This document shows, piece by piece, positions 3,440 through 18,522 of a DNA stretch of 34,417 nt (its first letter is position 1; the number at the start of each line of letters is the position of its first letter). The stretch comes from Melioribacter sp. Its GTDB lineage: Bacteria; Bacteroidota; Ignavibacteria; Ignavibacteriales; Melioribacteraceae. The stretch spans positions 1 through 34,417 of the forward strand of contig VEPI01000050.1 of assembly GCA_012026935.1 (NCBI GenBank). The letters are read 5' to 3'. The position numbers and the translations under genes were made by a program. Below the pieces are notes generated by a model, which saw only the letters and a list, made by a program, of their open reading frames with translations, was not told where the DNA came from and did no database searches.

Positions 3440-3513
3440 GCGCCCATAGCTCAATTGGATAGAGCAACAGCCTTCTAAGCTGTAGGTTAGTGGTTCGAGT
3501 CCACTTGGGCGTA
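3440..3513 (+). tRNA. tRNA-Arg (anticodon TCT)
   Basis: The acceptor stem GCGCCCA pairs with TGGGCGT, with a G-U first pair. The anticodon stem is ACAGC/GCTGT, and loop CTTCTAA gives anticodon TCT, which reads AGA/AGG codons. The T-arm GGTTCGAGTCC is canonical. CCA is not encoded. Confidence 0.95.
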
Positions 3514-3546
3514 CACAAGTTTGTTATTTGGAATTTTGAAATTTAT

Positions 3547-3624
3547 GGTGAGCATAGCTCAGTTGGTTAGAGCATCTGGTTGTGGCCCAGAAGGTCGTGG
3601 GTTCGATCCCCATTGCTCACCCCA
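3547..3624 (+). tRNA. tRNA-His (anticodon GTG), CCA encoded
   Basis: The sequence shows the histidine-specific extra G at position -1 (3547) opposite C73, the acceptor stem GTGAGCA/TGCTCAC, the anticodon stem TCTGG/CCAGA and loop TTGTGGC with anticodon GTG. Unlike its three neighbours, this gene encodes the 3' CCA (3622-3624). Confidence 0.95.
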
Positions 3625-14358: not shown

Positions 14359-14862
14359 ATGAAATTTTATACATCCATTCTATTAAGTACCATTGTTCTT
14401 TTTTCTGCTTGCAACTCACATAAAGATCAAGAAATATTTAAAAGTGCAGCCGAAAAATCCAAAGCTAAAAATTATTCCGAGGCATTAAAAGATTATCAAG
14501 AAATTATAAATGATTATTCAGGAAGTGATAAAGCTGCGGAAAGTATTTTTTCTGTTGCTGCGATGTATCATATGTATCAAATACCCAACGTTTCCAAAGA
14601 TGAATCACTCAAGAAAGCAGTTGAATATTATCAAAAATTATATCAGCTGTTCCCTCAAGATGAAAGAGCGCCTAAAGCCTTATTTATGTCAGGATTCATC
14701 CTGGCCAACGAACTTGGAAACACAAATGCCGCAAGGTTAGCTTATCAAGAATTTTTAAATAAATTTCCTAAGCATGAACTTGCTGTACCTGCGAGAGCGG
14801 AGTTAGATAATCTTGGCAAGACTCCGGAAGAAATTCTTCAAGAGAAAACAGCGAAAAAATAG
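14359..14862 (+). CDS. TPR-repeat lipoprotein (BamD/YbgF-like architecture)
   Basis: A 167-aa lipoprotein anchored through Cys19 of the lipobox LFSAC. After it come helical repeats of TPR type: AKNYSEALKDYQEIINDY, then ESLKKAVEYYQKLYQLFP with DERAPKALFMSGFI, then AARLAYQEFLNKFPKHE. This pattern is common in envelope scaffolds such as BamD and the Tol-associated CpoB/YbgF. The protein is shorter than BamD, so that identity is not claimed. Its TAG stop overlaps the GTG start of the DUF58 gene by one base, so the two are translationally coupled. Confidence 0.82.
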   Translation: MKFYTSILLSTIVLFSACNSHKDQEIFKSAAEKSKAKNYSEALKDYQEIINDYSGSDKAAESIFSVAAMYHMYQIPNVSKDESLKKAVEYYQKLYQLFPQDERAPKALFMSGFILANELGNTNAARLAYQEFLNKFPKHELAVPARAELDNLGKTPEEILQEKTAKK

Positions 14863-15770
14863 TGGCTGTAAAAACCCGAGACTATAAAAAATTTTTGGAT
14901 CCCGTTGTAATTTCCAAACTTAAAACTCTTGAACTAAAAGCAAGAATGGTAGTTGAAGGTTTTAAAGTCGGATTACACCGGAGTCCTTATCACGGATTTA
15001 GTGTTGAGTTCAGCGAGCATCGTCCTTATATGCAGGGTGATGCACTGAAAAATGTTGATTGGAAAGTTTTTGCCAAAAGCGAAAAATATTATATCAAACA
15101 ATTCGAAGAGGAAACAAATTTACTCTCCCACATTTTTGTTGACGCCAGTAAGTCAATGCAGTTCAAATACTCGGGCAAGGTTTCAAAAATAGATTATGCA
15201 ACAATTCTTGCTGCTGCTCTTGCTTATGTAATGATTGATCAACAAGATTCTGTCGGACTGGCAATTTACTCGGATAAAATTCATACGTATTTATCGCCAA
15301 AATCAAATCGTGTTTACCTAAGAACTTTGTTATCAGCTCTCAATCAAATCCAACCGGGAGGGGCAACGACAACTTCAAAATGTTTGGATTCTGTTGCAGA
15401 GAAAATAAAAAAGCGGGGGCTTACAATTATTATATCGGATTTTTTTGATGATATGAATTCAATACTTACCGCTCTTAAGCATATTCATTACAAAAAAAAT
15501 GAAGTAATAGTTTTTCAAATTCTTGACCCTATTGAAAAAAGTTTTGGTTTCGATCTTGATTCTGTTTTTGTTGATCTGGAATCGGGCGAGCAAATAACAA
15601 CACAACCACATCAAATCCAGCGCGCATACCAGGAAGCAATGAACGAATACTTGAATAAATTAAAAACCGAATGTTTGAATTTTGGCATTGAGTATAACTT
15701 GATTGATACCAGCCAGCCATTCGATAAAGCACTGATGAGTTATTTTGCTAAACGAACAAAGATGAATTGA
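14862..15770 (+). CDS. DUF58 domain protein (vWA-like)
   Basis: A soluble 302-aa protein of the DUF58 family, often found with MoxR AAA+ ATPases and Bat-type proteins. The family core is visible: GLHRSPYHGFSVEFSEHRPYMQGD, DWKVFAKSEKYYIKQFEEET, and a metal-ion-dependent adhesion site of the DxSxS form (VFVDASKSM). It ends in a Rossmann-like vWA fold (LTIIISDFFDD). No MoxR or BatA gene lies next to it here, so the partner ATPase must be elsewhere. The GTG start at 14862 is fixed by the one-base overlap with the preceding stop and by the AKTRDY-type N-terminus. The role is not known beyond the family context. Confidence 0.88.
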   Translation: MAVKTRDYKKFLDPVVISKLKTLELKARMVVEGFKVGLHRSPYHGFSVEFSEHRPYMQGDALKNVDWKVFAKSEKYYIKQFEEETNLLSHIFVDASKSMQFKYSGKVSKIDYATILAAALAYVMIDQQDSVGLAIYSDKIHTYLSPKSNRVYLRTLLSALNQIQPGGATTTSKCLDSVAEKIKKRGLTIIISDFFDDMNSILTALKHIHYKKNEVIVFQILDPIEKSFGFDLDSVFVDLESGEQITTQPHQIQRAYQEAMNEYLNKLKTECLNFGIEYNLIDTSQPFDKALMSYFAKRTKMN

Positions 15771-15845: not shown

Positions 15846-16532
15846 ATGAAGAATTTAATTTCCAATAAATCGTTGCTTACATTTCTTTTAATTTATACTG
15901 GAATAATTTTCCCGCAAGAGCTGCATAATATTCACGATCCAAAATATCCCACGCATTGGTGGACGCCGGTTCCCAAGGAAGGCGCGCCATCATGGGAAAT
16001 TCTTCCGCAAGAAGCGGGCCCCGGTGAAGTGATTCTTTCAAAACGGAATGAGCTCGGAATATTATCAAACTTTGCACCAACGCCGTTTATTTTTCATGGA
16101 AAACGTTATGCAAGTCTAGAAGGATTCTGGCAGATGATGAAATACCCGGAAAGTGAAGACGATCCTCGCGCTACTTTTCATGGGTTGCATTGGAAATATA
16201 CCCGCGAACAGGTAACCCAGCTGACAAGCTTTGAAGCTAAAAGAGCAGGTGATCTTGCCGAAGAAAATATGAAAAAGATGGGAATCAACTGGGTAACGTT
16301 TAAGGGAAAACGAATGGAATATAAACCTAATGTGCCCGGTAAACATTATAGACTAATTGTTGAAGCAACATGGGAAAAAGTTCGGCAGAATCCCGATGTC
16401 CAAAAAGTTTTACTTGCAACGGGTGATTTAATTTTAAAACCTGATCATCATCAAGAGCCAAACGCACCTGCTGCTTGGAAATATTATGAAATTCTTACCG
16501 AGATACGAGCTAAACTGCAAAAGAAAAATTGA
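15846..16532 (+). CDS. NADAR/YbiA-family protein with N-terminal export signal
   Basis: A 228-aa protein whose residues about 60-225 match the NADAR/YbiA fold. Members hydrolyse N-glycosidic bonds of riboflavin intermediates or remove ADP-ribose from guanine. Conserved features are LSNFAPTPF (73-81) and the SLEGFWQMMKY block with the putative catalytic Glu92 and Lys99. The C-terminal block VQKVLLATGD and ILTEIRAKL also matches. The WGxGxxGxGxN-like loop of E. coli YbiA is missing; residues HHQEPNAPAAW stand there instead. The N-terminus has two Lys and a hydrophobic core (about residues 10-22), so it looks like a signal peptide, with no lipobox. An exported NADAR protein is unusual. The gene converges on the phosphohexomutase/hicBA locus. 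Confidence 0.78.
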   Translation: MKNLISNKSLLTFLLIYTGIIFPQELHNIHDPKYPTHWWTPVPKEGAPSWEILPQEAGPGEVILSKRNELGILSNFAPTPFIFHGKRYASLEGFWQMMKYPESEDDPRATFHGLHWKYTREQVTQLTSFEAKRAGDLAEENMKKMGINWVTFKGKRMEYKPNVPGKHYRLIVEATWEKVRQNPDVQKVLLATGDLILKPDHHQEPNAPAAWKYYEILTEIRAKLQKKN

Positions 16533-16557
16533 TGGGCAATTCTATCATTCCTAAAAT

Positions 16558-16675
16558 TTAATTTCTTATTTCACTCACATATTTCTCAGCCAAATTCTCC
16601 GCATTTTCTTTAGTCTTCGCTTCAACAATACAAATCATAACGGTTAAAATGATTGTAAAGAGAAAGTGAATCCAG
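16558..16675 (-). pseudogene. Decayed duplicate of the 3' end of the phosphohexomutase gene
   Basis: On the minus strand this stretch reads IVEAKTKENAENLAEKYVS followed by EIRN and a TAA stop (16558-16560). This matches the C-terminus of the intact gene at 17149-18522. The first 54 bases of homology (16577-16630) match 17174-17227 with one mismatch. Further inside the gene, homology fades with substitutions and indels but remains traceable through W-x-H-F and AACCG to about 16672. It has no start and is not expressed as a protein by itself. It marks the place where the gene probably ended before hicBA arrived. Confidence 0.78.
16577..16630. repeat. 54-bp direct repeat, left copy (flanks hicBA)
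   Basis: Identical to 17174-17227 except for one base (A versus C in TCAGCCmAATT). With the right copy it brackets about 540 bp that contain the hicBA module. It lies inside the decayed 3' end copy of the phosphohexomutase gene. Confidence 0.9.
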
Positions 16676-16682
16676 CAATAAG

Positions 16683-16713
16683 TTGCTTATGTTCATTAAA
16701 AGAAATAATTTTT
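16683..16713 (+). promoter_or_regulatory. Candidate hicBA promoter
   Basis: TTG (16683-16685) and TAATTTTT (16706-16713) are 20 bases apart, close to the -33/-7 pattern seen elsewhere in the window. It lies 23 bases before the hicB ATG, immediately outside the decayed phosphohexomutase copy, as expected if the module brought its own promoter. Confidence 0.38.
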
Positions 16714-16736
16714 AACGGAATTAAAATGAGGTTTGC

Positions 16737-16949
16737 ATGAAAACTCGTGAAATTGATTATGTGGTTTGGAAAGAAGATAAATACTTTGTCTCACGCTGCA
16801 TTAATGTGGAAGTCTCTTCTTTTGGAAAAACTATAGAAGAAGCAATTAGTAATTTAAAAGAAGCTGTTGAACTATACTTTGACGGTGAGGATAAAGAACT
16901 TCCAGCGATAAATAATGTTATGTTGGGGCGGGAAGTAATTAATGCCTAA
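16737..16949 (+). CDS. hicB: HicB-family antitoxin
   Basis: A 70-aa antitoxin with the partial RNase H-like HicB fold. Visible are the opening strands (DYVVWKEDKYFVSRCINVEVSSFG), the helix TIEEAISNLKEAVELYFDGED and a short tail. No DNA-binding extension is present, so this is the short HicB form. The ATG follows GAGGTTTGC. The gene overlaps hicA by eight bases (16942-16949), as expected for a coupled toxin-antitoxin pair. The antitoxin-first order is one of the two known orders for this family. Confidence 0.87.
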   Translation: MKTREIDYVVWKEDKYFVSRCINVEVSSFGKTIEEAISNLKEAVELYFDGEDKELPAINNVMLGREVINA

Positions 16950-17157
16950 GTTATATTCCTCGACACAGATTCAAACTATCCTGCAAAAACTTCATTTCAC
17001 TTTTCAATCGCAAAAAGGTTCACATGGAAAATTCAAACATGCTGACGGTAGAATAGTAATATTGCCAATGAACAAGAAAGAAATTCCAATCGGTACATTC
17101 AGAAGTATTCTAAAGCAAGCGAATATTTCTCTTCAAGAATTTGAAAAATTATCTTAA
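16942..17157 (+). CDS. hicA: HicA-family mRNA interferase toxin
   Basis: A 71-aa toxin with the double-stranded-RNA-binding-like HicA fold. The catalytic histidine is in GSHGKF (residues 27-32), followed by GRIVILPMNKKEIPIGTFRSIL and KQANIS, the classic HicA C-terminal pattern. HicA cleaves mRNA when free of HicB. The gene starts inside hicB. Its stop (17155-17157) lies beyond the stop of the convergent phosphohexomutase gene (17149-17151), so the two 3' ends overlap by nine bases. The module is flanked by 54-bp direct repeats. Confidence 0.9.
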   Translation: MPKLYSSTQIQTILQKLHFTFQSQKGSHGKFKHADGRIVILPMNKKEIPIGTFRSILKQANISLQEFEKLS

Positions 17158-18522
17158 AGATAAAATTTCTTCAACATATTTCTCAGCCCAATTCTCCGCA
17201 TTTTCTTTAGTCTTCGCTTCAACAATAATTCTAATTATCGGTTCAGTATTTGATTTTCTGAAGTGTACCCAATGATCATCAAAATCAATTCGTAATCCGT
17301 CTTCAAGATTTATTTTCTCAGATTTATATTTCTCTACAAGTTTTTTAATTACATCATCCGGATTACGCGGCGCTGTTCCTTCAGAAACCGGGACTAGCTC
17401 AATTTTCTTTTTAACTATAAAATATTGAGGCAAAGATTTTTTCAATCCACTCATTTTACCGCGGTATTCAACTAAGTGCTGAAGCAATATTGCAGTCCCT
17501 GTAAGAGCGTCTCTTCCAAACACAGTTTGCGGTGCAATCACTCCACCGCTGCCTTCGCCGCCAATTACTGCATCAACTTCTTTCATTTTCTTAACAACAT
17601 TTGCTTCACCAACCGGAGCTCTAAAGACCCGGCATTCAAATTCTTTGGCAACATCTTCCACTGCGCGAGTTGTAGAAAGATTAACAACAACATTTCCTTT
17701 TCTTTCCTTCAGATAAAATTTAACTGCTTGAGTAATTGTATTTTCTTCACCGAACGGTTCGCCTTTTTCTGTAATTAATACTAACCGGTCAACATCGGGA
17801 TCAACAACTATTCCTAAATCCGCTTTATGTTTTATTACGGCTTCCATTGTTGCAGTTAAATTTTCCGGTATCGGTTCCGGCAATCGCGGAAAGATTCCGG
17901 TTCTTTCGCAATTTATCTCGATGACTTTGCAGCCAAGTTTGTTCAACAATTTCGGCATCGAATAAGCTCCCGCACCGTTTACGCAATCGAGTAAAACTCT
18001 AAATTTTCTTTTCCGGATTTTTGCAACATTTATATAATCCATCTTCAGTACCGCTTCCATATGATTATCCAAACCTTTTCTGTAATGAGTTACCTTTCCT
18101 AATTTATCCCAAGCAGAAAATTTTTTATCTGCTTCGTAAAGATGTTTCATCATACCGGCATTTTCTTCTGCGCTCATAAATTCACCGCTGCTATTGAGCA
18201 GCTTAAGTGCATTCCATTCATTTGGATTATGGCTCGCTGAAAGCTGAATCCCGCCAACAGCATTTAATTTTTTTACATTAAACAAAACTGTTGGGGTTGG
18301 ACAAATGCCGATATCCACAACATCATTACCTTTTGCAAGAAGTGTTCCTATAACAACGTTGCGTACCATCTCACCAGAAATTCGACCATCGCTTCCAACT
18401 ATGATTTTTCCTTTACCACAGAAATCAGCATAGGCAGAAGTGTAGTTTACCAAAACTTCTGGATCGAGTCCGTCACCGATTATTCCTCTTATTCCGGAAA
18501 TACTAACCATCAATGTTGGCAT
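17149..18522 (-). CDS. glmM: Phosphohexomutase (phosphoglucosamine/phosphomannomutase)
   Basis: An alpha-D-phosphohexomutase of 457 aa that interconverts hexose 1- and 6-phosphates for cell-wall or surface-sugar synthesis. The active serine is Ser97 in SASHNP, the metal site is DPDVDR (241-246), the sugar loop is GGEGSGG (321-327), and the phosphate-binding loop is RKSNTEP near the C-terminus. The sugar loop resembles archaeal-type GlmM/PMM more than the GEMSG-type loops, so glucosamine versus mannose/glucose specificity is open. AAGAGG precedes the ATG. The last codons (after EKYVEEI, giving LSLR and stop) lie in sequence shared with the hicA 3' end, and an older version of the gene end survives at 16558-16675. 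Confidence 0.85.
   Translation of the reverse strand: MPTLMVSISGIRGIIGDGLDPEVLVNYTSAYADFCGKGKIIVGSDGRISGEMVRNVVIGTLLAKGNDVVDIGICPTPTVLFNVKKLNAVGGIQLSASHNPNEWNALKLLNSSGEFMSAEENAGMMKHLYEADKKFSAWDKLGKVTHYRKGLDNHMEAVLKMDYINVAKIRKRKFRVLLDCVNGAGAYSMPKLLNKLGCKVIEINCERTGIFPRLPEPIPENLTATMEAVIKHKADLGIVVDPDVDRLVLITEKGEPFGEENTITQAVKFYLKERKGNVVVNLSTTRAVEDVAKEFECRVFRAPVGEANVVKKMKEVDAVIGGEGSGGVIAPQTVFGRDALTGTAILLQHLVEYRGKMSGLKKSLPQYFIVKKKIELVPVSEGTAPRNPDDVIKKLVEKYKSEKINLEDGLRIDFDDHWVHFRKSNTEPIIRIIVEAKTKENAENWAEKYVEEILSLR
17174..17227. repeat. 54-bp direct repeat, right copy (inside the 3' end of the phosphohexomutase gene)
   Basis: Matches 16577-16630 at 53 of 54 positions. It codes for the C-terminal segment IVEAKTKENAENWAEKYV of the intact gene. 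It begins only 17 bases beyond the hicA stop, so the module abuts this copy. Confidence 0.9.

Follow-up and report, generated by a model that had tools for sequence, protein, structure and literature searches.

A hicBA toxin-antitoxin cassette between two copies of the glmM gene end in Melioribacter sp., and similar arrangements at other genes

The hicBA locus behind glmM

The window, meaning the whole stretch of 34,417 nucleotides from Melioribacter sp. that was analysed (contig VEPI01000050.1), comes from the genome labelled G000; other G numbers designate comparison genomes and L numbers designate loci. A small toxin-antitoxin (TA) pair lies here between a live glmM gene and a second, decaying copy of the end of the same gene. 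The features of this region are as follows.

14862 to 15770, plus strand: DUF58 gene, a convergent neighbour of glmM in many genomes of the family
15846 to 16532, plus strand: NADAR/GP30.3-like gene (Phage_30_3 over cut-off, NADAR under cut-off)
16558 to 16675, minus strand: glmM remnant with its own stop, the displaced native 3' end (repeat, BLAST and protein match, with the G009 alignment); 16631-16675 is strongly decayed, 16577-16630 nearly identical to the live copy
16577 to 16630, minus strand: left copy of a 54-bp direct repeat (pairwise comparison)
16676 to 16736, plus strand: segment upstream of hicBA, a probable promoter (alignment)
16737 to 16949, plus strand: hicB, 70 aa, a short HicB-like antitoxin under the Pfam cut-off
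16942 to 17157, plus strand: hicA toxin gene, 71 aa (PF07927, 57.6 bits against a cut-off of 27)
17149 to 17173, minus strand: last 8 codons of live glmM (EEILSLR and stop), glmM-like, different from the native end, overlapping the end of hicA
17149 to 18522, minus strand: glmM, phosphoglucosamine mutase, the live target (TIGR03990, 512.5 bits against a cut-off of 439)
17174 to 17227, minus strand: right copy of the 54-bp direct repeat, within live glmM (pairwise comparison)

TIGR03990 is an archaeal-type model, and four PGM/PMM domains were recognised by Pfam in the window glmM. The gene is convergent with hicA and the two overlap by 9 bp at the glmM end; hicA and glmM are likewise convergent and overlapping in G026, which belongs to another genus. 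The segment upstream of hicB resembles, by alignment, the segments 5' of hicB in G008 (C45) and at the glmM locus of G006. From their sequences, hicB and hicA are predicted to form a type II toxin-antitoxin pair, with a toxic HicA that HicB would neutralise. HicA contains the GSH motif, which we take to have a role in this toxin. The window HicB had no match to a HicB model in Pfam, only one to DUF7387 at 24 bits against a cut-off of 27.9, and neither HicB nor HicA had an NCBIfam match at E 0.001. Relatives of HicB numbered 75 in the genome collection. Viral carriage was rejected given that no relatives were present in IMG/VR or in the phage collection, while plasmids gave six records, weakly similar (all below 60% identity), which bear a HicB annotation. 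The NADAR/GP30.3-like protein has, by eye, an N-terminal stretch resembling a secretion signal, which is unusual for its family.

The segments 16577-16630 and 17174-17227 are 54-bp direct repeats with a single mismatch (98.1% identity), and in a wider alignment the identity is 92% over 63 bp. An earlier note made from the sequence had these coordinates and this mismatch exactly right. It had also placed the live C-terminal coding sequence of a phosphohexomutase in the right copy, which is confirmed by glmM on the minus strand, and had put hicB and hicA between the repeats, where the two small genes are indeed located. In the left copy it had seen a decaying gene copy with its own in-frame stop, and three results agree with this. 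The translation of the left copy ends in ICIVEAKTKENAENLAEKYVSEIRN and a stop, the remnant matches live glmM by BLAST with E = 2.4e-22 (in a 12-sequence set), and a protein-level match to glmM spans 16564-16674 (59%, E = 1.6e-5). In the DNA alignment, the region of the WVHF codons is present with indels, up to a Trp codon at about 16675. The repeats flanking the hicBA insert measure 54 bp in DNA and about 110 bp at the protein level, and a pure 54-bp target duplication was rejected because the remnant extends, decayed, to this codon. The repeat pair is not due to chance, as a similar test found a nearby copy for 2 of 392 background gene 3' ends.

An empty site and a survey of glmM loci

The earlier note had expected that a relative without hicBA would have its glmM end adjoining the NADAR gene, and such a site was found in G009, a genome of the same genus, where the NADAR-like gene is followed directly by a single copy of the glmM 3' end. 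The NADAR/GP30.3-like gene is thus the flank that leads into the native gene end. Window positions 16482-16617 align with G009 without a break, an alignment that takes in the NADAR stop codon, the spacer and also the remnant. It follows from this continuity that the left copy represents the native glmM end, still at its original location, with the hicBA cassette and the current gene end lying in between.

A survey for a copy of the gene's own C-terminus within 2.5 kb covered 57 glmM loci whose downstream sequence could be read for 600 nt or more. A same-strand copy was present in two of them, G000 and G006, with a TA pair in between in both; the third match, in G056, is weak and on the opposite strand. 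The observation named by the earlier note as adverse to an insertion, a remnant in relatives without hicBA, was not made at these 57 loci, as both remnant carriers hold a TA pair.

Other small genes were noticed at this position. In G011 (L010, 2896-3474) a MazF/MazE pair (PF02452, PF04014), another type of TA, lies directly behind glmM in convergent orientation; this locus was considered as a remnant carrier and rejected, the search having found no glmM remnant above noise. In G014 (L118), from another genus, a hicB-like fragment and a small antitoxin-like gene, both by eye, are present within about 0.6 kb downstream of glmM, and in G028 a related hicBA pair at glmM has decayed. The DUF58/glmM junction seems to be a hot spot for inserted small genes.

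The junction in common with G006 and apparent turnover of the TA pairs

In both G000 and G006 the join lies between the upstream segment of the cassette and the WVHF Trp codon. The match across this junction is 80% over 51 bp (alignment score 81 against a shuffle maximum of 69), about 39 bp of it in the upstream segment, which is partly common to other cassettes of the type, and about 12 bp in glmM. The argument for a shared event is that both breakpoints coincide. This is evidence against two independent insertions at glmM, a possibility that was rejected on these grounds, and suggests that the event was shared either by descent or by transfer; it also follows that close relatives without the insertion must have lost it or never received it. 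A simple recent insertion, as the earlier note had pictured it, does not agree with a cassette/remnant junction shared with G006, whose glmM locus holds a hicBA pair of a different type from that of the window. The near-identity of the 54-bp copies probably reflects later homogenisation of the repeats, since the outer remnant has decayed while these 54 bp are still 98% identical to the live copy.

Close relatives of the window pair are found beside an HSP90 gene in G008 (HicB 91%, HicA 79%) and at glmM in G026 (HicB 90%, HicA 74%). A pair resembling by eye that of G006 lies directly behind a truncated hicB of the window type in G065 and G068. From this arrangement, TA pairs appear to replace one another within the same slot. 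This second hicBA type, at L159 (G068, 1600-2242) and L169 (G065, 2001-2635), looks as though one TA had been inserted into another.

The live gene ends

The live glmM of the window ends in EEILSLR, the remnant in SEIRN and the G009 gene in GEVRNLILT, each before the stop. Of the last 24 bases of the live gene, 17 agree with the glmM ends of G010 and G007 (p = 0.00025 by comparison with random 24-mers of the window), and because of this match the last 8 codons look like an imported glmM end. The live glmM end of G006 is 78 and 75% identical to G008 and G011, against 89 and 87% for the rest of the gene and 83.5 and 84.3% for the remnant, so that, judging from these comparisons, the live end seems to be of foreign origin here as well. 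Such foreign-like live ends are not explained by pure target duplication.

A different picture was obtained for an Omp85-family gene with a ParE module in G048, where the repeat is 89% identical over 142 bp. In this gene it is the remnant that has decayed and is frameshifted. The live end looks native, being similar to 11 orthologs, so the idea that it had been altered was rejected. The gene-end-replacing process proposed in the earlier note consequently fits glmM, with its foreign-like live ends, but not other cases such as Omp85 in G048.

Duplicated gene ends at other TA loci

The search suggested in the earlier note for further small cassettes flanked by a duplicated gene 3' end found them both in the family and elsewhere. 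One target is a radical-SAM gene here called lipA-like (lipoyl synthase by eye, Radical_SAM according to Pfam). Among its 12 loci in the genus, 9 have no hicBA, G006 and G008 have the full pair, and G004 has hicB with, by eye, a piece of hicA beside it. The sequence that follows hicA in G006 and in G008 can be aligned with the empty lipA-like site of G011, across the decayed gene end and into the native downstream region; the automatic repeat test detected the G006 copy and not that of G008. A transposase-like gene (RAYT by eye) is located between the lipA-like gene and hicB in G006 (L064, 610-1041) and is absent in G008. This gene and a dehydrogenase piece at L073 were both named by eye and had no Pfam match.

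Gene-end duplications at hicBA were also found at lplA in G008 (live end and remnant 80% identical), in G045 (93% over 115 bp) and in G022 (91% over 43 bp), and at the level of the class the end of an FtsK gene is repeated at 78%. A record of Candidatus Staskawiczbacteria has an identical second copy (100%) of the last 31 bp of the RNase J gene, into which the reading frame of hicA continues. A Ktedonobacterales record has a 42-bp repeat, 97.6% identical, of the 3' end of an M20 peptidase gene, and here the copy starts just after the hicA stop. The cassettes in these two records measure 470 and 503 bp respectively, and we take the records to represent Patescibacteria and Chloroflexota. Pfam support was obtained for M20, MazF/MazE, HSP90, FtsK and ParE. 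No terminal inverted repeats were found in 8 cassettes by a simple test, at most 11 of 30 end positions matching.

Frequency of flanking repeats

Within the family, hicA was found in 45 of 75 genomes, at 91 places, of which 90 were used; the place left out is another fragment of a G062 gene already counted. At E < 1e-6, 19 of the 90 hicA loci are flanked on either side by direct repeats, compared with 3 of 196 random positions, which were drawn from glmM neighbourhoods of the same family. Among the matches listed, flanking repeats occurred at 5 of 30 PIN loci, 6 of 30 ParE loci and 1 of 30 loci of an acetyltransferase (GNAT) control. The pooled values are 30 of 150 for TA against 4 of 226 for controls (Fisher p = 1.4e-9), the controls being unmatched for accessory or intergenic context and the PIN and ParE loci not being individually confirmed as TA pairs. 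Contig ends leave less than 500 nt on one side at 10 of the 90 hicA, 6 PIN and 7 ParE loci. Flanking repeats were also seen for hicA of the wider class (6 of 29, among the matches listed) and for relatives of the window HicB in the genome collection (11 of 75).

Of the 19 hicA loci with flanking repeats, 10 were assigned to an ORF end by the automatic test. Gene-end calls were accepted or rejected by eye, and 9 of the 19 were accepted as gene-end duplications, eight at 3' ends (L063, L064, L073, L074, L085, L087, L091 and L150) and one at the 5' end of a short-chain dehydrogenase gene in G013 (L157). In L063 and L073 just 7-8 codons are common with the gene and the remainder is downstream DNA. 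Over all accepted gene-end cases, in this set and elsewhere, repeat lengths range between 31 and 147 bp; L379 was overlooked by the automatic test and found by eye. Of the 10 loci that were not accepted, nine look REP-like, attC-like, repetitive or otherwise not derived from a gene; L165 was rejected as repetitive, and the duplication at L183 (G029) is mostly intergenic. With one 5'-end duplication and one that is largely intergenic, a process specific to 3' ends, as the earlier note had it, is not borne out.

Some other repeats around TA genes were noticed by eye. Those at L072, L167, L246 and L264 are long and attC-like or REP-like, and integron cassettes may exist in the family. At L196 (G023) a 125-bp repeat of 97% identity (1615-1739 and 3451-3575), resembling an integrase fragment, flanks a hicA-like gene.

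A stricter test directed at gene 3' ends, in which a copy of the last 75 bp of the facing gene was sought across the TA, gave 5 of 101 for hicA, 1 of 29 for ParE, 2 of 31 for hicA of the wider class and 1 of 85 for HicB relatives, and none at 27 PIN loci or at 24 acetyltransferase control loci. One of the two background copies mentioned above is the G006 glmM case, and with this case left out of the controls the pooled result is 9 of 273 against 1 of 415 (p = 0.0015), the background and TA tests having slightly different search spans. The match at L408 (63-67%) is doubtful, as it may be a shared secretion-domain tail, and without it the result is 8 of 273 (p = 0.0034).

Probable insertion with a long target duplication, and alternatives

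The repeats, the empty site, the decay of the remnant, the recurrence at other genes, the enrichment at TA loci and the junction shared with G006 are direct observations, and we consider that they are probably best explained by hicBA being a minimal cassette whose insertion at the glmM 3' end was accompanied by a long target duplication, the repeats serving as homology thereafter. The cassette, made of the upstream region, hicB and hicA, would be of about 0.5 kb, and the duplication would originally have covered about 110 bp from the Trp codon of the WVHF motif. glmM owes its survival to one copy remaining joined to the complete reading frame, and the other copy, the native end, would have become the decaying remnant. 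Template switching or one-sided homologous recombination may have made the first junction; either would give the product seen here. In later recombination steps, the repeats could have allowed transfer into empty sites of relatives, replacement of the last codons of the gene by the glmM end of a donor, homogenisation (the 98% stretch) and precise loss. With an active toxin such loss would come at a cost, and this addiction may slow it down. Insertion inside a gene would destroy it except where the duplication extends beyond the end of the gene, and survivors would therefore pile up at gene ends by selection. Counting against this explanation are the junction shared with G006, by which G000 and G006 are not two separate events at glmM, the foreign-like live ends, the lack of gene-3'-end copies at the 27 PIN loci with just one among 85 HicB relatives, and the roughly one half of the TA-flanking repeats (10 of 19 for hicA) that were not taken to be gene ends.

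Perhaps no duplication of the target took place at all, and the glmM 3' end of a donor was recombined in together with hicBA, through homology on one side and illegitimately on the other, leaving the old end behind. We regard this import of a gene end as a real possibility with somewhat less than an even chance. It is consistent with the glmM-like last 8 codons of the live gene, with the live end of G006 being more diverged from G008 and G011 than the remnant is, and with the related hicBA at glmM in another genus (G026) and, decayed, in G028. However, the copies of the 54-bp repeat resemble one another more than they do any of the orthologs compared and are about equally distant from G009 and G010 (87.0 and 88.9%), and the 31-bp and 42-bp cases have no sign of a foreign end, though these were compared without orthologs. 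The first arrival at each gene would also be left unexplained.

Recombinases are much poorer candidates than either of these processes. The action in trans of a site-specific integrase at gene 3' ends would account for a duplicated gene end with a restored gene, but the targets differ (glmM, lipA-like, lplA, Omp85, RNase J and others), the repeats have lengths between 31 and 147 bp, a gene 5' end is involved in one case, and no integrase is encoded among the 8 window genes checked by Pfam, so that we find this explanation very improbable. Carriage on an integron cassette or an IS/MITE has in its favour the attC-like or REP-like repeats seen by eye at some other TA loci of the family and the transposase-like gene, by eye and with no Pfam match, beside the G006 lipA case. 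Yet the window repeat is glmM coding sequence, terminal inverted repeats were not found by the simple test, and the flanking genes checked include no transposase, which makes this the least probable explanation of all, with hardly any weight.

The interpretation given in the earlier note is partly supported, by the empty site, by the finding of remnants only together with a TA pair and by the glmM-like last 8 codons of the live gene, and is not supported as it stood on 3'-end specificity, on the novelty of the mode and on recency. Extending the idea of insertion with a target duplication, we tentatively suggest, as a possibility that we would not yet call probable, that type II TA modules are minimal mobile elements themselves. 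The bare operon would insert along with a long duplicate of its target, for the most part tolerated at gene ends because the gene is saved by the duplicated stretch. Its own repeats would then serve for its spread and turnover by homologous recombination, and addiction would work against its loss. If true, this would explain in general terms, for different phyla, how TA modules of chromosomes integrate without a recombinase.

Comparison with known systems

The window pair is like the HicAB type II systems in its HicA family match over the cut-off and in its two small overlapping genes, and it differs in its short antitoxin, which is HicB-like but under the Pfam cut-off. Genomic islands that target tRNA genes duplicate the 3' end of a gene and restore the gene, and the same is seen here. 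Unlike these islands, the present cassettes carry a TA only and sit at protein-coding targets, and no integrase was found among the 8 window genes; nor was a constant att core found across the cases, since genes and repeat lengths differ from one to the next.

A 2020 review describes the mechanism of TA integration as not elucidated and TA insertion as seemingly not occurring at random locations. For restriction-modification systems, insertion with long target duplication has been published, according to the papers of Nobusato (2000) and Furuta (2010) as they are cited in PMC3874152 and PMC3031569, and in view of these citations the process that the earlier note had suggested as a possible mode of TA mobility is not new as a mode. 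TA modules as its cargo appear to be unreported, which falls short of proof of absence in print: no report of target duplication for TA modules was found in the titles and abstract openings searched, and most subscription papers lie outside that search.

As far as these citations describe the restriction-modification insertions, the resemblance lies in the lack of a link to transposons, in long and variable duplications of about 100 bp and in a cargo of the addiction type. The characteristic features of long target duplication are present here: target repeats, single-copy empty sites (glmM in G009 and the lipA-like gene in G011), and neither transposon ends (in 8 cassettes) nor a transposase (among 8 window genes). 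As to whether both copies derive from the recipient, the 54-bp copies are about equally distant from orthologs, yet the last 8 codons of the live gene and the live end of G006 are foreign-like. Compared with the restriction-modification insertions, again as cited, the cargo here is a type II TA module of 0.5 kb (hicBA and also a ParE module), gene ends are preserved, and the hosts are Ignavibacteriales and members of other phyla. The signature of a long target duplication with a decaying gene end is visible at the sequence level, which makes the mobility of TA modules a countable and testable question, and it ties them to restriction-modification systems, another addiction-type element that bears the same signature.
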